This document shows positions 15,273 through 63,143 of a DNA stretch of 64,000 nucleotides, one piece after another. The position numbers and the translations under genes are program-made. Where the stretch lies: NCBI GenBank assembly GCA_003697085.1, contig RFFU01000040.1, positions 48,271-112,270 of the forward strand, in the 5' to 3' direction. Within the stretch, counting starts at the first letter, position 1; each line of letters starts with the position of its first letter. The notes beneath the pieces are model-generated. The model was not told the origin of the DNA. It ran no database searches and saw nothing but the letters and a program-made list of their open reading frames with translations. Source of the stretch: Candidatus Hydrogenedentota bacterium (GTDB taxonomy: Bacteria; UBA8481; J006).

Positions 15273-15345
15273 GGAAAAGGCAAAAGGAAGAAGGCAAAAG
15301 GAAGAAAGCAAAAGGCAAAAGGGAGAAGGGAAAGGAGGCGTTCCG
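15273..15345. repeat. Purine-rich GGCAAAAGG-type low-complexity tract inside the gsp operon
   Basis: The plus strand is almost pure purine, built from degenerate copies of GGCAAAAGG and GGAAGAA. It fills the gspK-gspL gap, although the other gsp junctions that can be read (J-K, I-J, L-M) overlap by 4 nt. Related tracts occur at 24395-24550 and 51196-51290, also just upstream of minus-strand membrane-protein genes. Confidence 0.7.
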
Positions 15346-24394: not shown

Positions 24395-24550
24395 AAAGCA
24401 ATAGGAAAAAAGTCACACAAGAGGGAAAAGGAAAAAGGCAAAAGGAAAAGGGCAAAAGGAAAAAGGGAGAAGGGAGGAGGGAGGAGGGAGAAGGGAAAAG
24501 AGAGAAGAGAGAAGAGAGAAGAGAGAAAAGGAAAGGAGGAAGGAGGGGGC
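24395..24550. repeat. Purine-rich low-complexity tract (GGCAAAAGG / GAGAGAA type)
   Basis: About 155 nt of nearly pure purine on the plus strand, grading from GGCAAAAGG-like units to GGGAGGA and then GAGAAGA repeats. It separates the divergent tadE-like and HD-GYP genes (24367-24687), a region that otherwise holds no gene. It could form triplex (H-DNA) structures and may contain the promoters of both genes, though none is clear. Confidence 0.75.
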
Positions 24551-51191: not shown

Positions 51192-51195
51192 GCTT

Positions 51196-51290
51196 TTCCC
51201 CTCTCCCTTTTTCCTTTTTTTCCTTTCTCGTTTTGCCTTTTCCCTTTTGCCGTTGTCCCTTTGCCCTTTGCCTTTCCATGCTTTCGTTTC
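51196..51290. repeat. Pyrimidine-rich (CTTTTGCCTTTTCCC)-type tract
   Basis: Degenerate repeats of TTTTGCC, CCCTTTTGCC and CTTTGCC lie between the HAD gene and the start of the GT-C-like gene. The minus strand is purine-rich and matches the GGCAAAAGG words of the tracts at 15273 and 24395, in inverted orientation. Confidence 0.75.
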
Positions 51291-56243: not shown

Positions 56244-56354
56244 AACTTGTTCACCTCCTGAAGCCGCGATGTTAGCGGAAAAAGAGAAAAAGGATAGAAG
56301 AAATGTAAGGGAAAAGGGAACGCGGAGATGAACGAACCAAGCGCAAGTTTCTCA

Positions 56355-56510
56355 AGCCGGGAACGCAGGCATCTTGCTTGCAGGAAAATTGCTTGCAGGA
56401 AAACTCGCGAAGGGCGCAATCCCCTGGGAGCGCAGGCATCTTGCTTGCAGGAAAACCCGCGAAGGGCGCAGCCGCGGGACCTCGGGCACCGTGCCTGCGG
56501 GAAGACAGCG
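56355..56510. repeat. Cluster of REP-like repeats (tandem 67-bp units)
   Basis: GCAGGCATCTTGCTTGC occurs at 56365-56381 and 56432-56448, each followed by GGAAAAC, CGCGAAGGGCGCA and related words, so two units of about 67 bp are tandem. A third degenerate unit (GGCACCGTGCCTGCGGGAA) follows near 56488. The block lies upstream of the M29 gene and downstream of the broken mazF. Confidence 0.75.
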
Positions 56511-57370: not shown

Positions 57371-57712
57371 ATGATGCGGTCTGTTCAAAAGAAGGTTCGT
57401 TCTCTTCTCGAAGAACGGGGAATGTCCGTTGCCGACCTCGCGGCCCGAACGGGGCGATCCTATTCGGATGTGCGGCGGAGCCTGACCGAACCGCATTGCT
57501 GGCGACTCGATCGCCTCTTCGATTACGCCGAAGCCCTGGAAACGGCACCTGCTTTTCTTTTGCCCGCTGGCGGTGAAGCGGTGAAGGGGTTATCCGGTAT
57601 GCCTGATCGAATGACGGGGTTTCCGATCGAGGAGCGGCTCCGATCCGCCGCGCTTTCTGGACGACTGGTGGCGGCTTTGAACCGGATCGGCCGGCGGAAC
57701 CGGCGGCGATGA
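57371..57712 (+). CDS. HTH-domain protein, likely antitoxin/regulator of the downstream nucleotidyltransferase
   Basis: The protein has about 113 residues. Starts at ATG 57371 and 57374 are adjacent; upstream extension is low-complexity. Residues about 10-45 (LLEERGMSVADLAARTGRSYSDVRRSL) form a Cro/XRE-like helix-turn-helix. The C-terminal half is helical with an LxxLPxGGE-type linker. Its stop overlaps the nucleotidyltransferase ATG (ATGA), so the two are translated together. The arrangement of a small HTH protein before an NTase-fold protein is the usual order of MNT/AbiE-type toxin-antitoxin modules. Antitoxin function is an inference. Confidence 0.7.
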   Translation: MMRSVQKKVRSLLEERGMSVADLAARTGRSYSDVRRSLTEPHCWRLDRLFDYAEALETAPAFLLPAGGEAVKGLSGMPDRMTGFPIEERLRSAALSGRLVAALNRIGRRNRRR

Positions 57713-58233
57713 CAGGCGAGGGGCTCTTTTCTTTCGAGTTTCTGCGCGCGATGGCTGAAAAAGAGGTGGAGGCTCTTTTGATCGGGCGGCAGGCGATGGC
57801 GGTTTACGGCGCTCCCACGGCGACGAACGATCTGGATGTACTGGTTGTTTCCAAAAAGGCGGAGAGGATTCTTGGAGAACTCGCCGAGAGTTTCGGATTG
57901 GTCAAGGTACTCGAGGAAGAAAGAGGGATGGTGTGGAAGAGGAGGCAGGTTCGTTATACCGACGATCCCGAGATACCTTCAGCCGCCGGTGTTTGGCCTC
58001 GGGTCGTGGACATTCTGACCATTCCGCGTATGCGCGGCTTCGCCTTTGAGACGGCCTGGCGGCGTCGCGTGCCGATCAAATTGGAAACCGGCGGCGCATT
58101 CTTCGTGCCCCATATCGATGATCTGATCGTGCTCAAGCGCCGTCGCAACAGCGACCGGGACAAGGAGGATATAGCGTGGTTGAAACGCCACCGCCGTGAG
58201 ATCGTGGAAGAATTCCCCGGCGTCGGCGGGTAG
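57709..58233 (+). CDS. Nucleotidyltransferase-fold protein (DUF6036/AbiEii-like), probable toxin partner
   Basis: The 174-residue protein has an N-terminal core with GRQAMAVYGAPTATNDLDVLV, where the TxDLDV strand carries the two Asp of the nucleotidyltransferase metal site. The C-terminal helical part contains VPHIDDLIVLKRRRNSDRDK, typical of the DUF6036/AbiEii family (DLIxLK...DxxDI). These proteins act as toxins in HTH-paired TA systems by modifying tRNA or similar targets, although many are uncharacterised. It overlaps the HTH gene. Its last 12 codons (REIVEEFPGVGG) lie inside the 64-bp repeat that flanks the following cassette, which is thus inserted exactly at its 3' end. Confidence 0.78.
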   Translation: MTGEGLFSFEFLRAMAEKEVEALLIGRQAMAVYGAPTATNDLDVLVVSKKAERILGELAESFGLVKVLEEERGMVWKRRQVRYTDDPEIPSAAGVWPRVVDILTIPRMRGFAFETAWRRRVPIKLETGGAFFVPHIDDLIVLKRRRNSDRDKEDIAWLKRHRREIVEEFPGVGG

Positions 58234-58320
58234 CGATTCCTGTTGCGGGAATCGGTCGCCTTTTTTTCCGAGTTTCCACATTTAGTGCGTTCGGATAGCC
58301 GGAGGAAAAGGATACGAGGA

Positions 58321-58387
58321 GAGGGCAAGGGCAGGGGCAGGGGCAAGGGCATGATCAATCAAGGGCAGGGGCAGGGGCAAGGGCAAG
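58321..58387 (+). repeat. Left hexanucleotide array (GGGCAA/GGGCAG)
   Basis: Two blocks of tandem GGGCAA and GGGCAG units are separated by TGATCAATCA. The array reads in the sense of the downstream gene. It is the approximate reverse complement of the array at 58796-58841. Confidence 0.85.
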
Positions 58388-58433
58388 GAAAAGAACGGTT
58401 TGTCGGCTTATAGAACGTTGGTATCATCCCGAT

Positions 58434-58790
58434 ATGGTGAAATCCTCGGATGAATTCGACCATGAACGCCTTCAGGTATATCAAAAGGCGGCACTGTTTG
58501 CCGGAAATGCGGATCGTATAGCCAAGAAACTCAGGAGAAGACGGCGAGATCTTGCCGATCAGCTGGAAAGGGCTTCATCGTCCATATTGTTGAACATTGC
58601 GGAAGGTGCTGGCGAATATTCAAGGCCGGAAAAGAAGCGATTTTTCCGGATGGCAAAACGTTCTGGAGCCGAGTGTGCCGGGATTCTCGATCTTTCTCAT
58701 CGAATCGGCTGTATTACTCCCAAAGTCTACTCAGTGAATCGAGAATTGTTGTTGGAAATTATTCGAATGCTCGTTGCACTATGCAGATAG
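58434..58790 (+). CDS. Four-helix-bundle protein (23S rRNA intervening-sequence protein family)
   Basis: The 118-residue protein belongs by pattern to the IVS/four-helix-bundle family: FDHERLQVYQKAALFA at the N-terminus, then ADQLERASSSILLNIAEGAG, the family's most conserved stretch, and RFFRMAKRSGAECAGILDLS. The family includes proteins encoded in 23S rRNA intervening sequences and, more distantly, Avd accessory proteins of diversity-generating retroelements. Here it is not in an rRNA gene but within a repeat-bounded cassette between inverted GGGCAA arrays. ATG 58434 lacks a strong ribosome-binding site. Function is unknown; nucleic-acid binding is reported for relatives. Confidence 0.85.
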   Translation: MVKSSDEFDHERLQVYQKAALFAGNADRIAKKLRRRRRDLADQLERASSSILLNIAEGAGEYSRPEKKRFFRMAKRSGAECAGILDLSHRIGCITPKVYSVNRELLLEIIRMLVALCR

Positions 58791-58795
58791 CACGG

Positions 58796-58841
58796 CCCTT
58801 GCCCATGTCCTTGCCCTTGCCCTTGCCCTTGCCCTTGCCCT
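58796..58841 (-). repeat. Right hexanucleotide array (TTGCCC), inverse of the left array
   Basis: About seven TTGCCC-type units with one variant (CCCATGTCC) immediately follow the four-helix-bundle stop codon. With the left array they could pair into a long stem enclosing the gene. Confidence 0.85.
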
Positions 58842-59008
58842 TAATGGGTTAGTGCTGTCTCGAAAAACACAGAATCTCGCTAATCACTCATTAGCGCCTC
58901 ACAACGAGACTTTAGAAAATCAAAGTTTTCCACAGTGGAAACTCGGGAGATCGTGGAAGAATTCCCCGGCGTCGGCGGGTAGCGATTCCTGTTGCGGGAA
59001 TCGGTCGC

Positions 59009-62000
59009 CTATTTTTCTTCCGCGAGTCGCTTGACCGCCGCCAGGTCGATCTTGCCCGTGCCCAGAAGCGGGATTTCATCGACACGGCGGAAGGCGGTCG
59101 GTTTCGGGATCCAGAGGTTCGGCAACTTGTACTCCTCCCGCAGAGCATTCACGACCTCCCGGGGATCCAGTTCCAGTGTATGGAGAACGACCAGTTCCTC
59201 CCGTCCGGAGGCGTCGCGGCGTCCGGTCACGACCGCCGGCGGACCGCTTCTGCTCGGTTCGTCATCCGCCTTCCGTGCGCGGGCGATGTGATCGAGTACG
59301 GCTTCCTCGACTCGTCCGTGCGGCACCATCTCGCCGCCGATCTTGGAGAAGCGTTCGAGCCGCCCGACGATGCGGAGAAATCCGTCTTTTTCCAGGACGG
59401 CGACGTCACCGGTCCGGTACCAACCGTCCCGGAGCACCTCGGCCGTTCGGTCGGGATCCCGCAGGTATCCCTTCATCACGTTTGCGCCTTTCACCCAGAG
59501 GATCCCCTCTTCGCCGGTCGAGCATTCTTCTTGCGTCTCCGGGTTCCGGATTCGGACGGCGACCCCGGGCAAGGGATGGCCGATGCTTCCGGGCTTTCTC
59601 TTGGCGGGCACGTTGATGGCGATGACCGGAGCGCACTCTGTCGCGCCGTAGCCCTCGAGAAGCGGACAAGAGAATCTTTCCTCCCACGCCTTCGCCACTT
59701 CCGGGGGCAAGGTCTCGGCTCCCGCGAAAGCCAACCGCAGGCTCTGGAAGTTCTCGGGGGGAATCCGGCGCAGGTAGGCTCGCGCGAAGGTGGGGGTGGT
59801 GAGGAGAATCGTGGCGTTGGCGTCCCGGCAGGCCTTCCCGATAGTGTGCGTGTCGAGCGGATTGGCGTGGTAAATCGCGGAGAACGAACCTAGAAGAGGA
59901 AACCAGAGGGTGCCGGTGTAGCCGAAGGAATGGAAGAAGGGAAGGATGCCGAGGATGCAGTCGGATTTCCGCGTATCGAAGACGTCGGAAAGACCCAAGA
60001 CGTTGGCGAGGATGTTGGCGTGGGTGAGGACGACGCCCTTGGGGGTTCCAGTCGAGCCGGAGGAGAAGATGACCGTGGCGGCATCGTCCGGTTGCCGCCG
60101 GCTTCCGGGCAGGAGACGTTCGATGACGGGAAGGGGAAGGAAGGAGAAGAGAAGATACCAAAGGACGATCTTGAGGCGTGGCAGGGAAGAGGTCAGGTCC
60201 TCGAGATAAAGAACGCGCGCGGGGGGAAGCGGCGCCGCGATCTTCTGGAGAAACTTTCGGGAAGTGAAGATTCGGGAGATGCGCGCACTCCGGACGGCGA
60301 AACCCAACGCTTCCGCGGAAGCCGTGAAGTTGAGGTTGACGGAAATCTTGCCGCAAAGCGTGCAAGCGATGTTCACCATCGCGGCGGCGGTGCCCGCGGG
60401 GAGGAGAATCCCGATGGATTCGGGATCTTCGGGATCCTCGGCTCGACGGTTTTCTTTCGGTTCCGTTTTCGTCGATTCCGAACCGTTCTGGCGGCCGCAA
60501 AGGTAGGTTTGCGCGAAGACGTGAGAGACGGCGACGAGCCGACCGAAGGGGAGGGACGAGCCGAGCGTATCCTGGACGGCGGTCCGGAACCAGGAAAGGC
60601 GTGCGGCGCGCAGGAGGGCGCGGGTGAGATTCCGGTGACGGGCGGCGCGGAGCCGCATCGCCTCGGCGCCCAATTCGAGAACACTTTGGCGGACGGTATC
60701 GGCCTTCGTTCGGCTTGGAAGGGGTTGTCCGAGCGAGACGGTGACCGGATAGGGGATCCTCCGCGGAATCTTCCAGAGGAGACGTCCCTCGGAGAAGGAG
60801 AAGATGGAGCCCCAGACGCCGTCGAGGTGGACCGGGATTACGGGAACGCTCGCGGTGTCCGCCACTGTTTCGAATCCCCTCCGAAACGTCGTCGGCAGTC
60901 CGGTCCGCGTGATCTGTCCTTCGGCGAAGATGCAGACGAGTTCTCCTTCCATTGCGGCGTTCGCCGCCTCCCGTAGAGCGGCTCGTACGCTCTCGCGCCT
61001 TCCCGGGGCGATGGGAATGGCGCGCATCAGGCGGCAGAACGGGTGGAAGAGGCGGTGGTTGTAGTAGTCTTCGAGCATCAGGAAGCGGATCGGGCGTTCG
61101 ATGGCGCTTCCGATAAGGAGGGCGTCGATGAAGGAGACGTGGTTCGAGACGAGGACGGCTCCGCCCGTTGCGGGAATATGTTCCCGTCCGAGAATGCGCA
61201 AGCGGTAGATGGTCGTTGTGAGGAGCCACCCGGAGAAACGAACGACGAACTCGGCCAGCCAGAGGCAGAGGAGGATGCCGATGACCAGCGTGGCGAATCC
61301 GAGGAGAAGGAAGAGAGTTCGGGGAGAGATGCCTGCTTTCTCGACGGCGGCGAATATCGCGGATGCGGCGAGGACGGCGGAGAAGACGAGGAAGTTGGAG
61401 GCTGCCAGAACACCGCCTCGATCCGCGCGGGGTGCTCGTTCCTGGACAGCGGCCTGGAGCGGTACGATGAAGAGACCCGAGGCGAAACCGAGAAAGAGGT
61501 AGGTCACCACTCCGCTGGAAAGGCCGTGCGCCGCCGTGGCGATCAGGACGAGCCCGACGGCGGTTCCGAGTTCGCCCAGCGGCACCAGCCCGATCTCGAC
61601 CATATTCCGCGACCACCGGCCGGCGACGAGCGAGCCGACGCCGATACCGATGGAGAGCGTCGTCATAAGGATGCTCGTCTGCGTTTCGAAATCGGCTCCC
61701 GTCGCGGTGTTGAAGAGGTCGGAGCGCGCGAAGAGGAGGGTTGCGAAATAGACCATCTGCCCGAGGAACCAGAAGAAGGCCAGTCCGATCATCGGTGCTC
61801 CAAGGGACCTTTTCGGGAGGGATTCGGAAAGGCGGCGGAAGATGTCGCCGAACGGGTTCCGCCACTCGATCTTCTTTTCCGGCGCGACGGCCGGCGCCGG
61901 CGGGACGGCGAGGGAGACGAGCCAGGCGAGCGCGGCGAGGACGGCGCAAGCGAGCGAGGCGGACGTCGGGTCGCCGTGGAGGTAATGGAGCGCCGCTCCG

Positions 62001-62527
62001 CCGAACGCGGTGCCCAGGACGATCGCCCCGAACGTGGCGGCTTCCAGGACGCCGTTGGCCCGGGAAAGATGCTCGACGGGGAGGGTCTCCGGGAGGATGC
62101 CGTACTTGGCCGGCGAATAGAAGGCGGATTGCGCTCCCGCCCAGAACAACGCGGCCAACACGAGATGGAAGGCGCCGAAGTGGAACGCGACCGCCGCCAG
62201 AAGCATTCCGAAGACCCCGTACAACTGCATCACGATGAAGACGGTTCGTTTCGAGTACTTGTCGGCAAGCGCTCCGGCCCAGGAGGAGAAGAGAAGGAAC
62301 GGGATGATGAAGAGCGCTCCGATAACCGACAGGATCACTCCGCCCTCGCTGGTGCTCGAAGGAATGGAACGGAGGAGAACGAGGCTGACGATCAGCTTGA
62401 AGGCGTTGTCGTTAAAGGCGTTGAGGAAGACGGCGACGTAGTAGGCGACGAATCCCTTCCGCCTGAGGGGGGAAGCCTCGGACGGTGTCGTAGTGGTGCG
62501 GTCGGGGGAGGGAACGGGCTTGACCAT
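59009..62527 (-). CDS. Fused MFS (LplT-like) transporter, 1-acylglycerophosphate acyltransferase and acyl-ACP/CoA ligase (Aas-like)
   Basis: The protein has about 1,172 residues, starting at MVKPVPSPDR (ATG 62527), 1 nt after the CPBP stop. The N-terminal third is an MFS transporter (FNDNAFKLIVSLVLL, LADKYSKRTVF) of the LplT lysophospholipid-flippase type. Next is a PlsC acyltransferase with the NHxxxD motif (SNHVSFIDALLIG). The C-terminus is an adenylate-forming ligase with SSGSTGTPKGVVLTH and GYGATECAP. Together they import lysophospholipid, activate a fatty acid and re-acylate the lipid at the inner membrane. The three-way fusion exists elsewhere in bacteria. Stop 59009 touches the direct repeat of the adjacent cassette. 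TetR operators upstream suggest lipid-responsive control. Confidence 0.92.
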   Translation of the reverse strand: MVKPVPSPDRTTTTPSEASPLRRKGFVAYYVAVFLNAFNDNAFKLIVSLVLLRSIPSSTSEGGVILSVIGALFIIPFLLFSSWAGALADKYSKRTVFIVMQLYGVFGMLLAAVAFHFGAFHLVLAALFWAGAQSAFYSPAKYGILPETLPVEHLSRANGVLEAATFGAIVLGTAFGGAALHYLHGDPTSASLACAVLAALAWLVSLAVPPAPAVAPEKKIEWRNPFGDIFRRLSESLPKRSLGAPMIGLAFFWFLGQMVYFATLLFARSDLFNTATGADFETQTSILMTTLSIGIGVGSLVAGRWSRNMVEIGLVPLGELGTAVGLVLIATAAHGLSSGVVTYLFLGFASGLFIVPLQAAVQERAPRADRGGVLAASNFLVFSAVLAASAIFAAVEKAGISPRTLFLLLGFATLVIGILLCLWLAEFVVRFSGWLLTTTIYRLRILGREHIPATGGAVLVSNHVSFIDALLIGSAIERPIRFLMLEDYYNHRLFHPFCRLMRAIPIAPGRRESVRAALREAANAAMEGELVCIFAEGQITRTGLPTTFRRGFETVADTASVPVIPVHLDGVWGSIFSFSEGRLLWKIPRRIPYPVTVSLGQPLPSRTKADTVRQSVLELGAEAMRLRAARHRNLTRALLRAARLSWFRTAVQDTLGSSLPFGRLVAVSHVFAQTYLCGRQNGSESTKTEPKENRRAEDPEDPESIGILLPAGTAAAMVNIACTLCGKISVNLNFTASAEALGFAVRSARISRIFTSRKFLQKIAAPLPPARVLYLEDLTSSLPRLKIVLWYLLFSFLPLPVIERLLPGSRRQPDDAATVIFSSGSTGTPKGVVLTHANILANVLGLSDVFDTRKSDCILGILPFFHSFGYTGTLWFPLLGSFSAIYHANPLDTHTIGKACRDANATILLTTPTFARAYLRRIPPENFQSLRLAFAGAETLPPEVAKAWEERFSCPLLEGYGATECAPVIAINVPAKRKPGSIGHPLPGVAVRIRNPETQEECSTGEEGILWVKGANVMKGYLRDPDRTAEVLRDGWYRTGDVAVLEKDGFLRIVGRLERFSKIGGEMVPHGRVEEAVLDHIARARKADDEPSRSGPPAVVTGRRDASGREELVVLHTLELDPREVVNALREEYKLPNLWIPKPTAFRRVDEIPLLGTGKIDLAAVKRLAEEK

Positions 62528-62528
62528 T

Positions 62529-63143
62529 TCAGAAGTACCCCAGGAAGAAGAGGCCGCCGCCCAGCAGGACGAGGTCCGCGGCGACATGGCTCAAGAAAGG
62601 TTCCTGGATTCGTCCGCCGCGGGAGAGGAATGACCAGACGAGCCCGGCGGGATAGACGGCCGCTCCGGTGCAAAGCGCGGCGGAAACGGAACCGAGCCCC
62701 GCCAGGACGATGACGTGCTGGAGCGCGAAGCAGAACGCGGAGGCCGGAGGACCGATCTGTTCGTCGAGGAATCCCCGGTAGAACCACTCTTCCAGAAGCG
62801 CGTTGGCCGTGGCGATGAGAAGGGCGGCGGCGGCGGCCGTGGCGGGGGAATATCCGTAGCGGACATCGAAAGCGTGCCGGAGTTCACCGGGCGCGATGAA
62901 GAGAGGAAGAAAGAGCCAGACGAGGCCGAATGCGACGCCCCCCAACACAAGTCCACTGAGGATTGCCGGAAGTGTTTCCGGCCGTTTCGGCGGGCGGGGC
63001 GGACGGAGTTTCTTCCCGTAGAGAAACGGAAGGAGCAGAAGCGCGATCTTGTAGAGGCCGAAACCGAGCCAACCGTGTCCGAGGAACGGGCCGGCGGCGG
63101 CCAAGAGAAGCGGCACGGCCGCGATGAAATATCCGCCGTTCAC
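62529..63143 (-). CDS. CPBP (CAAX-type) intramembrane metalloprotease
   Basis: The 204-residue protein has six to seven TM segments. The family catalytic motif EExxxR appears in LLEEWFYRGFL, with further metal-binding His in ALQHVIVL and SHVAADLVLL, as in CPBP proteins (Rce1-like). These act as intramembrane proteases or chaperones in envelope stress and, in some bacteria, bacteriocin immunity. It is the first gene of the minus-strand pair with the lipid-recycling fusion and lies 80 nt from tetR. A TetR-type palindrome sits at 63179-63198, just upstream of the ATG, so it is probably repressed by the neighbour. Confidence 0.9.
   Translation of the reverse strand: MNGGYFIAAVPLLLAAAGPFLGHGWLGFGLYKIALLLLPFLYGKKLRPPRPPKRPETLPAILSGLVLGGVAFGLVWLFLPLFIAPGELRHAFDVRYGYSPATAAAAALLIATANALLEEWFYRGFLDEQIGPPASAFCFALQHVIVLAGLGSVSAALCTGAAVYPAGLVWSFLSRGGRIQEPFLSHVAADLVLLGGGLFFLGYF

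Follow-up and report, generated by a model that had tools for sequence, protein, structure and literature searches.

Why should a single short gene be enclosed by tandem repeats of a hexanucleotide on one side and by their reverse complement on the other? The question is raised by a locus of a Candidatus Hydrogenedentota bacterium, located in a window of 64,000 nucleotides, a term used here for the whole stretch of DNA that was analysed. A preliminary description, made from the sequence alone, had recorded inverted GGGCAA/TTGCCC arrays flanking a gene for a putative four-helix-bundle protein and had proposed that the arrays pair to form a long stem around that gene. The best answer that we can offer, with a probability of about 0.55, is that gene and arrays constitute a compact mobile element, in which one S23 gene lies between inverted arrays of short tandem repeats, mostly with 7-nt units, and in which the S23 protein serves as the element's own factor.

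The gene product belongs to the S23 family, for which structures 2GSC and 2RLD are available, and it matches the Pfam model PF05635 (1.4e-22, 80.3 bits) and the NCBIfam model TIGR02436 (2.5e-20, 72.7 bits) above their respective cut-offs of 33.8 (curated) and 24. Tandem Repeats Finder identified the arrays as (AGGGCA)11.5 and (GCCCTT)8, the former consisting of two blocks lying 8 nt apart, and in a repeat search they constituted inverted arms with up to 93% complementarity over 30 nt. All 11 matches to GGGCARGGGCA in the window fall within these two arrays, against 0.07 expected and a maximum of one in 100 shuffled sequences, such that repeat finding, arm pairing and shuffle counts all bear out the description of an inverted pair. 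The proposed stem also emerged when RNA extending over positions 58300-58860 was folded, the arrays being predicted to pair around the S23 gene with an energy of -228.8 kcal/mol and a z-score of -6.48, and none of 100 shuffled sequences folded as well. The positions of the different components are given in Table 1.

Table 1. Components and neighbours of the S23 cassette, and further repeat arrays of the window
Feature	Position	Strand	Remarks
Period-7 array, no adjoining S23 gene	15275-15333		AAAAGGC; purine or pyrimidine tract
Period-7 array, no adjoining S23 gene	24422-24527		AGGGAGA; purine or pyrimidine tract
Period-7 array, no adjoining S23 gene	51193-51269		CTTTTCC; purine or pyrimidine tract
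Upstream neighbour, DUF6036 nucleotidyltransferase-like gene	57709..58233	+	3' end duplicated
74-nt direct duplication, left copy	58195..58268	+	DUF6036 gene end and hairpin terminator
Left terminal inverted repeat, 12 nt	58268..58279	+	CCGAGTTTCCAC
Left end of element outside array	58269..58321	+	similar end 5' of GGGCAA arrays on contigs C50 (end) and C124
Left arm, tandem GGGCAA/GGGCAG array	58322..58388	+	two blocks, 58322-58351 and 58360-58388
S23 (four-helix-bundle) gene, 118 aa	58434..58790	+	PF05635 23S_rRNA_IVP, TIGR02436
Right arm, reverse-complement array	58795..58842	-	(GCCCTT)n on + strand
Right end of element outside array	58843..58943	+	
Right terminal inverted repeat, 12 nt	58935..58946	-	GTGGAAACTCGG on + strand
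74-nt direct duplication, right copy	58944..59017	+	97% identical to left copy
Downstream neighbour, acyl-ACP--phospholipid O-acyltransferase gene	59009..62587	-	

A direct duplication of 74 nt and an inverted repeat of 12 nt, moreover, surround the whole cassette, and both had escaped the preliminary description. As a standard target duplication the former is only putative, being far longer than the 8-12 bp seen at other sites (see below). The convergent acyltransferase gene takes its stop codon from the right copy of this duplication, and comparably long outer duplications were observed at L061 (61 nt) and L108 (36 nt). Of the two sequences resembling the left end of the element, that on contig C50 is followed by a GGGCAA array within which the contig ends, and that on C124 is degenerate; no second copy of the right end was found in the source genome. 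The window element carries neither a transposase in general nor the Y1 HUH transposase gene that would define a REPIN/RAYT system, S23 being its sole gene. No rRNA family was detected in the window, and the reverse transcriptase and template repeat of diversity-generating retroelements, whose accessory protein Avd is homologous to S23 (PMC10053308), are also absent; the cassette lies between the DUF6036 and phospholipid acyltransferase genes and not inside an rRNA gene.

The arrays are not exclusive to the gene, and about 15-20 further sites in the source genome carry GGGCAR arrays without an S23 gene. The source genome has a second S23 gene, which is split over the ends of contigs C46 and C99 and is flanked by arrays that do not match one another. 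The earlier suggestion of a common origin for the arrays and for other purine tracts of the window is plausible, given that three such tracts are period-7 arrays (Table 1) and that solitary arrays of 7- or 8-nt units mark genomes bearing S23 genes. A dispersed repeat (GGAGCGCAGGCATCTTGCCTGCAGGAA... and GCAGGTTCTCCAACCTGCG) was also seen beside many array sites of the source genome (L006, L027, L033, L038 and, in the window, at about 56320-56440).

In order to generalise beyond one locus, PF05635 genes were collected from 60 domain-wide genomes, from one phylum represented by three genomes, from 199 genomes of another phylum and from 80 named loci of Cyanobacteria, Bacteroidota, Planctomycetota, Verrucomicrobiota, Acidobacteriota, Chloroflexota and others, the named loci being skewed to one S23 clade because they were found with a single S23 protein query. 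Complementarity was scored for the 183 S23 genes whose flanks were complete, by aligning the sequence upstream of each gene with the reverse complement of that downstream. The median score was 20, compared with 12 both for flanks paired across loci (p = 9e-42) and for further ORFs from these loci (p = 6e-21), and scores of at least 20 were reached by 50% of the S23 genes, 3.6% of the mismatched pairs and 5.6% of the neighbouring genes. For 77 divergent S23 representatives the contrast amounted to 62% versus 0.5% of mismatched pairs. Thus, the layout of an S23 gene between inverted arrays recurs in many phyla, while about 38-50% of S23 genes, including the second one of the source genome, lack clear complementary arms. 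The 23S rRNA signature motif was not found in any S23 locus examined. At four Balneola loci (L324, L325, L333, L335) the S23 matches are preceded by a common TTTTTGTAAGGAAT...GTCTTAC motif and possibly belong to another protein family.

Arrays are therefore very strongly enriched beside four-helix-bundle genes elsewhere, contrary to the outcome that would have refuted the preliminary description, but the unit is usually of 7 nt and varies from locus to locus, and is not GGGCAA. A period of 7 was detected in 45% of upstream and 34% of downstream S23 flanks as against 2% of control segments, and a period of 8 in 6-9% as against 0%; among the scored flank arrays the best period was 7 in 118, 14 in 41, 8 in 28 and 6 in only 2, so that the 6-nt unit of the window is a rare variant. 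Units vary between loci, even among copies within one genome, and yet a common polarity was apparent, with G exceeding C in 82 of 90 upstream arms and the G-rich strand pointing inward. Within the group the window copy is best regarded as old or atypical, since its unit is of 6 nt, it has additional ends, the duplication around it measures 74 nt and its downstream neighbour lies on the opposite strand.

Insertion of the S23 unit, with target duplications of 8-12 bp, was observed in Anabaena. A 452-bp cassette of Anabaena catenula (L132) is missing from the corresponding place in its sister species A. lutea, where the 12-bp sequence CATTAAAAGTCA occurs once in the empty site, and it is found twice around the A. 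catenula insert. A 97% identical copy of the same cassette lies elsewhere in A. catenula and is also found in A. lutea at the position orthologous to that copy, where the S23 gene has acquired a stop codon and the arms consist of 2 units on the left and 7 on the right, compared with about 20 and 3 in A. catenula. Two further empty sites in Anabaena and its kin yielded duplications of 9 bp (GGTGACAGG) and of about 8 bp (TTAAAATC), the latter being approximate, with a counterpart that is 79% identical.

Mobility is also indicated outside Anabaena. At one Balneola site, two close genomes carry S23 elements whose proteins are only 51% identical (L301:9560-10330 and L302:9210-9940) and a third genome (L303) is empty, which suggests either replacement or a hot spot. 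Most S23 loci are common to two close Balneola genomes, implying that movement is slow. At a Cytophagales site, one genome has an S23 gene and the other an inverted array pair lacking S23, and several S23 copies contain internal stops. Over all loci, outer direct repeats scored at least 10 in 25% of cases versus 6% of mismatched controls, and at least 12 in 5% versus 0.7%; they were undetectable at most S23 loci and, since the excess is modest, target duplications were taken solely from sites with an empty counterpart.

For the compact mobile element that we favour, the following scheme can be proposed. The S23 protein, a pentameric ring in a solved family member, would recognise the arms of its own element, in the form of either hairpin DNA or hairpin RNA, and would itself mobilise or maintain that element, and stray arrays and inverted pairs lacking S23 may represent non-autonomous or decayed derivatives that relate to it as REPINs do to RAYTs. 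Co-transcribed arms would generate an RNA stem that isolates the cassette, and RNase III probably cleaves this stem as it does in the S23-coding intervening sequences of 23S rRNA; such isolation could render insertion within operons tolerable. To our knowledge, no catalytic activity has been attributed to S23 and none is visible in it; its most likely role is recognition of the arrays together with their spread or maintenance.

The L317 insertion and the window element have additional inverted ends beyond their arrays, as though an IS element or MITE had carried them, and a transposase acting in trans is possible on the basis of these two copies. If S23 and its arms were MITE-like cargo that ordinary IS transposases mobilise in trans, the arrays would be a by-product. 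The imperfect outer inverted ends (GGAGC...) and 9-bp duplication of the A. catenula C20 copy, with part of the end recurring near contig ends, could be accommodated in this way, as could the 12-nt outer inverted repeat of the window element and the twofold repetition of its left end in the genome. We consider this unlikely, because at L132, which is the cleanest case, the array directly abuts the 12-bp duplication with no separate IS end, and because it is the arms and not the outer ends which are common across phyla, with an arm unit that follows the S23 lineage. Nor would cargo be expected to show the strong sense bias of the S23 cassettes, 92 of which are oriented in sense to both neighbours and 7 in antisense to both (p = 5e-20 versus equal numbers).

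The repeat unit of the arms follows the lineage of the S23 protein, and the two were coupled in a Mantel-like test (0 of 500 permutations). At 55-80% protein identity, mostly between different phyla, arms share the unit, scoring 18-19 versus 11-12 when shuffled, and there is no decay across this range. Shared descent alone was judged an unlikely cause of this conservation, given that synonymous sites are mostly saturated at the same identities, and the sharing would best be explained if the S23 protein recognises the unit. Below 50% identity the similarity of arms between loci falls to background and their self-complementarity is still about 25. A site upstream of obgE illustrates the process: each of eight cyanobacteria carries an inverted array pair there, with units that are mostly individual, and S23 is intact in one genome, survives as a homologous remnant in two others and is absent from five. 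Private units at a fixed site imply that both arms change in concert, and slippage within arms combined with hairpin-templated copying between them could keep the arms matched despite sequence drift. Arms whose complementarity persists through replacement of their sequence would provide a natural record of hairpin-templated DNA copying.

S23-less inverted pairs at orthologous sites, together with the plentiful arrays located far from S23 in Anabaena and in the source genome, could also arise if S23 were a passenger contributing nothing to an autonomous process, such as replication slippage and template switching, which generates inverted and solitary arrays alike. This is distinctly unlikely in view of the covariation of unit and protein lineage and of the distribution of stray arrays: away from S23, 22 arrays of 7- or 8-nt units were found in 615 kb (13 of 40 regions) of genomes with several S23 genes, whereas genomes of that phylum which lack S23 had none (348 kb, 0 of 20 regions). 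Counted by region, the hypergeometric probability of this contrast is about 0.002, although the regions are few and the value is uncorrected for phylogeny. Stray arrays of other periods differed little between genomes with and without S23. In Pseudomonadota, GGGAATC arrays occurred in only one of 395 genomes sampled, and two heptad patterns gave no separation, S23 being present in 5 of 6 pattern-bearing genomes and in 18 of 32 others. The reversed control pattern (CTAAGGG)3 matched repeatedly in five Pseudomonadota genomes (G545, G585, G393, G526, G352) and constitutes another heptad family.

S23 proteins evolve under purifying selection, with a median dN/dS of 0.13, and thus are not debris. 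Such selection would equally be expected of an ordinary host gene in an operon, flanked by neutral simple repeats that quasipalindrome correction holds inverted, and the orientation of the cassettes resembles that of host genes, 92 of 126 being fully co-directional compared with 198 of 309 small host genes (30 of 309 antisense) from a partly different genome set; the sharing of most loci by close Balneola genomes would also agree. This explanation is nevertheless improbable, and for the Anabaena elements it is largely refuted by the empty sites, since a host gene would account neither for near-identical copies at different sites with target duplications, nor for multiple copies per genome with different units, several of them with internal stops, and other ORFs at the same loci lack inverted arrays. 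The excess of 92 over 7 implies that the elements are normally placed for co-transcription, as are rRNA intervening sequences. An inversion switch operating between the arms was also considered and is unsupported, the orientation being one-sided. It is highly improbable that the arrays are G-quadruplex or repeat-number switches (phase variation) for the gene or its neighbours: upstream arrays are G-rich, array length varies among orthologs and G4 folding has been studied for the Xanthomonas GGGAATC arrays (PMC4692102), but many units lack G-runs (GAATTCA, AGTTATT, ATTTTAG) and the conserved trait is arm complementarity, which a one-sided regulator does not need.

A broader reading, to which we would give rather less than even odds, is that S23 proteins drive a distinct class of transposase-less bacterial mobile elements, in which each S23 lineage recognises a heptad of its own and both spreads and rewrites inverted arrays of it throughout the genome. 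The intervening sequences known from rRNA and the surplus of 7-nt repeats in bacterial genomes would then both be products of this class. We know of no function for S23, although its structure was solved two decades ago. The S23-array layout would join this matter to two others, the mobility of rRNA intervening sequences and the heptamer excess, and each is testable in culturable cyanobacteria. The intervening sequences have been suspected of being mobile, without a mechanism (PMC4990558), and the excess of heptameric repeats in bacterial genomes has been reported without a detailed explanation (PMC4692102). In the open-licence literature we found nothing tying S23 genes outside rRNA to inverted repeat arrays.

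Several known systems share some of these properties. The foldback transposons FB, Tetris and Galileo also have terminal inverted repeats built of internal tandem subrepeats, as seen in the window and in the family, and give rise to dispersed tandem arrays; the 8-10 bp target duplications of Drosophila Tetris (PMC4079207) resemble the 12, 9 and about 8 bp of Anabaena and its kin, the 74-nt duplication of the window being only putative in this respect. In contrast to the S23 element, which is bacterial, has S23 as its only gene and uses units of 7-8 nt, foldback transposons are eukaryotic and employ Mutator- or P-type transposases. REPIN/RAYT systems consist of a single-gene element with inverted short repeats and many scattered, intergenic, non-autonomous repeats, and the repeat tracks the protein lineage. 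The S23 element likewise combines one gene with many gene-less repeats, but the RAYT is an HUH tyrosine transposase to which S23, with no recognisable catalytic site, is unrelated, and REPINs are single palindromes where S23 units form tandem arrays.

Intergenic tandem arrays of 7-nt units are also known as the heptameric repeats of Nostoc (STRR) and Xanthomonas (GGGAATC) (PMC4692102) and of Beggiatoaceae (TAACTGA) (PMC4679880), which differ in having been described as free-standing. Four-helix-bundle genes go unmentioned in the main texts of both papers. Xanthomonas carries 70-75 convergent inverted heptamer pairs (PMC4692102), and it encodes the S23 protein XCC0516, the subject of structure 2GSC.

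The closest relatives are the S23-coding intervening sequences in the 23S rRNA genes of Coxiella and Leptospira, which share the protein family, a comparable size (428-444 nt in the intervening sequences), complementary ends that form a stem around the ORF, as in the window, and a sense orientation within a transcribed unit. That of Coxiella has an S23 ORF and a 28-bp terminal stem, is excised by RNase III and carries GACAGAT heptads 5' of the ORF in a strain-dependent number (PMC4990558). The S23 cassettes described here differ in being intergenic in protein-coding regions and not in rRNA, in using inverted tandem arrays as the stem and in showing several copies per genome and target duplications. 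The heptads, a local feature in Coxiella according to that report (PMC4990558), appear here as a hallmark of the S23 family, and on our best reading the classical intervening sequences of rRNA represent the part so far recognised of an S23 mobile element that is foldback-like and widespread.
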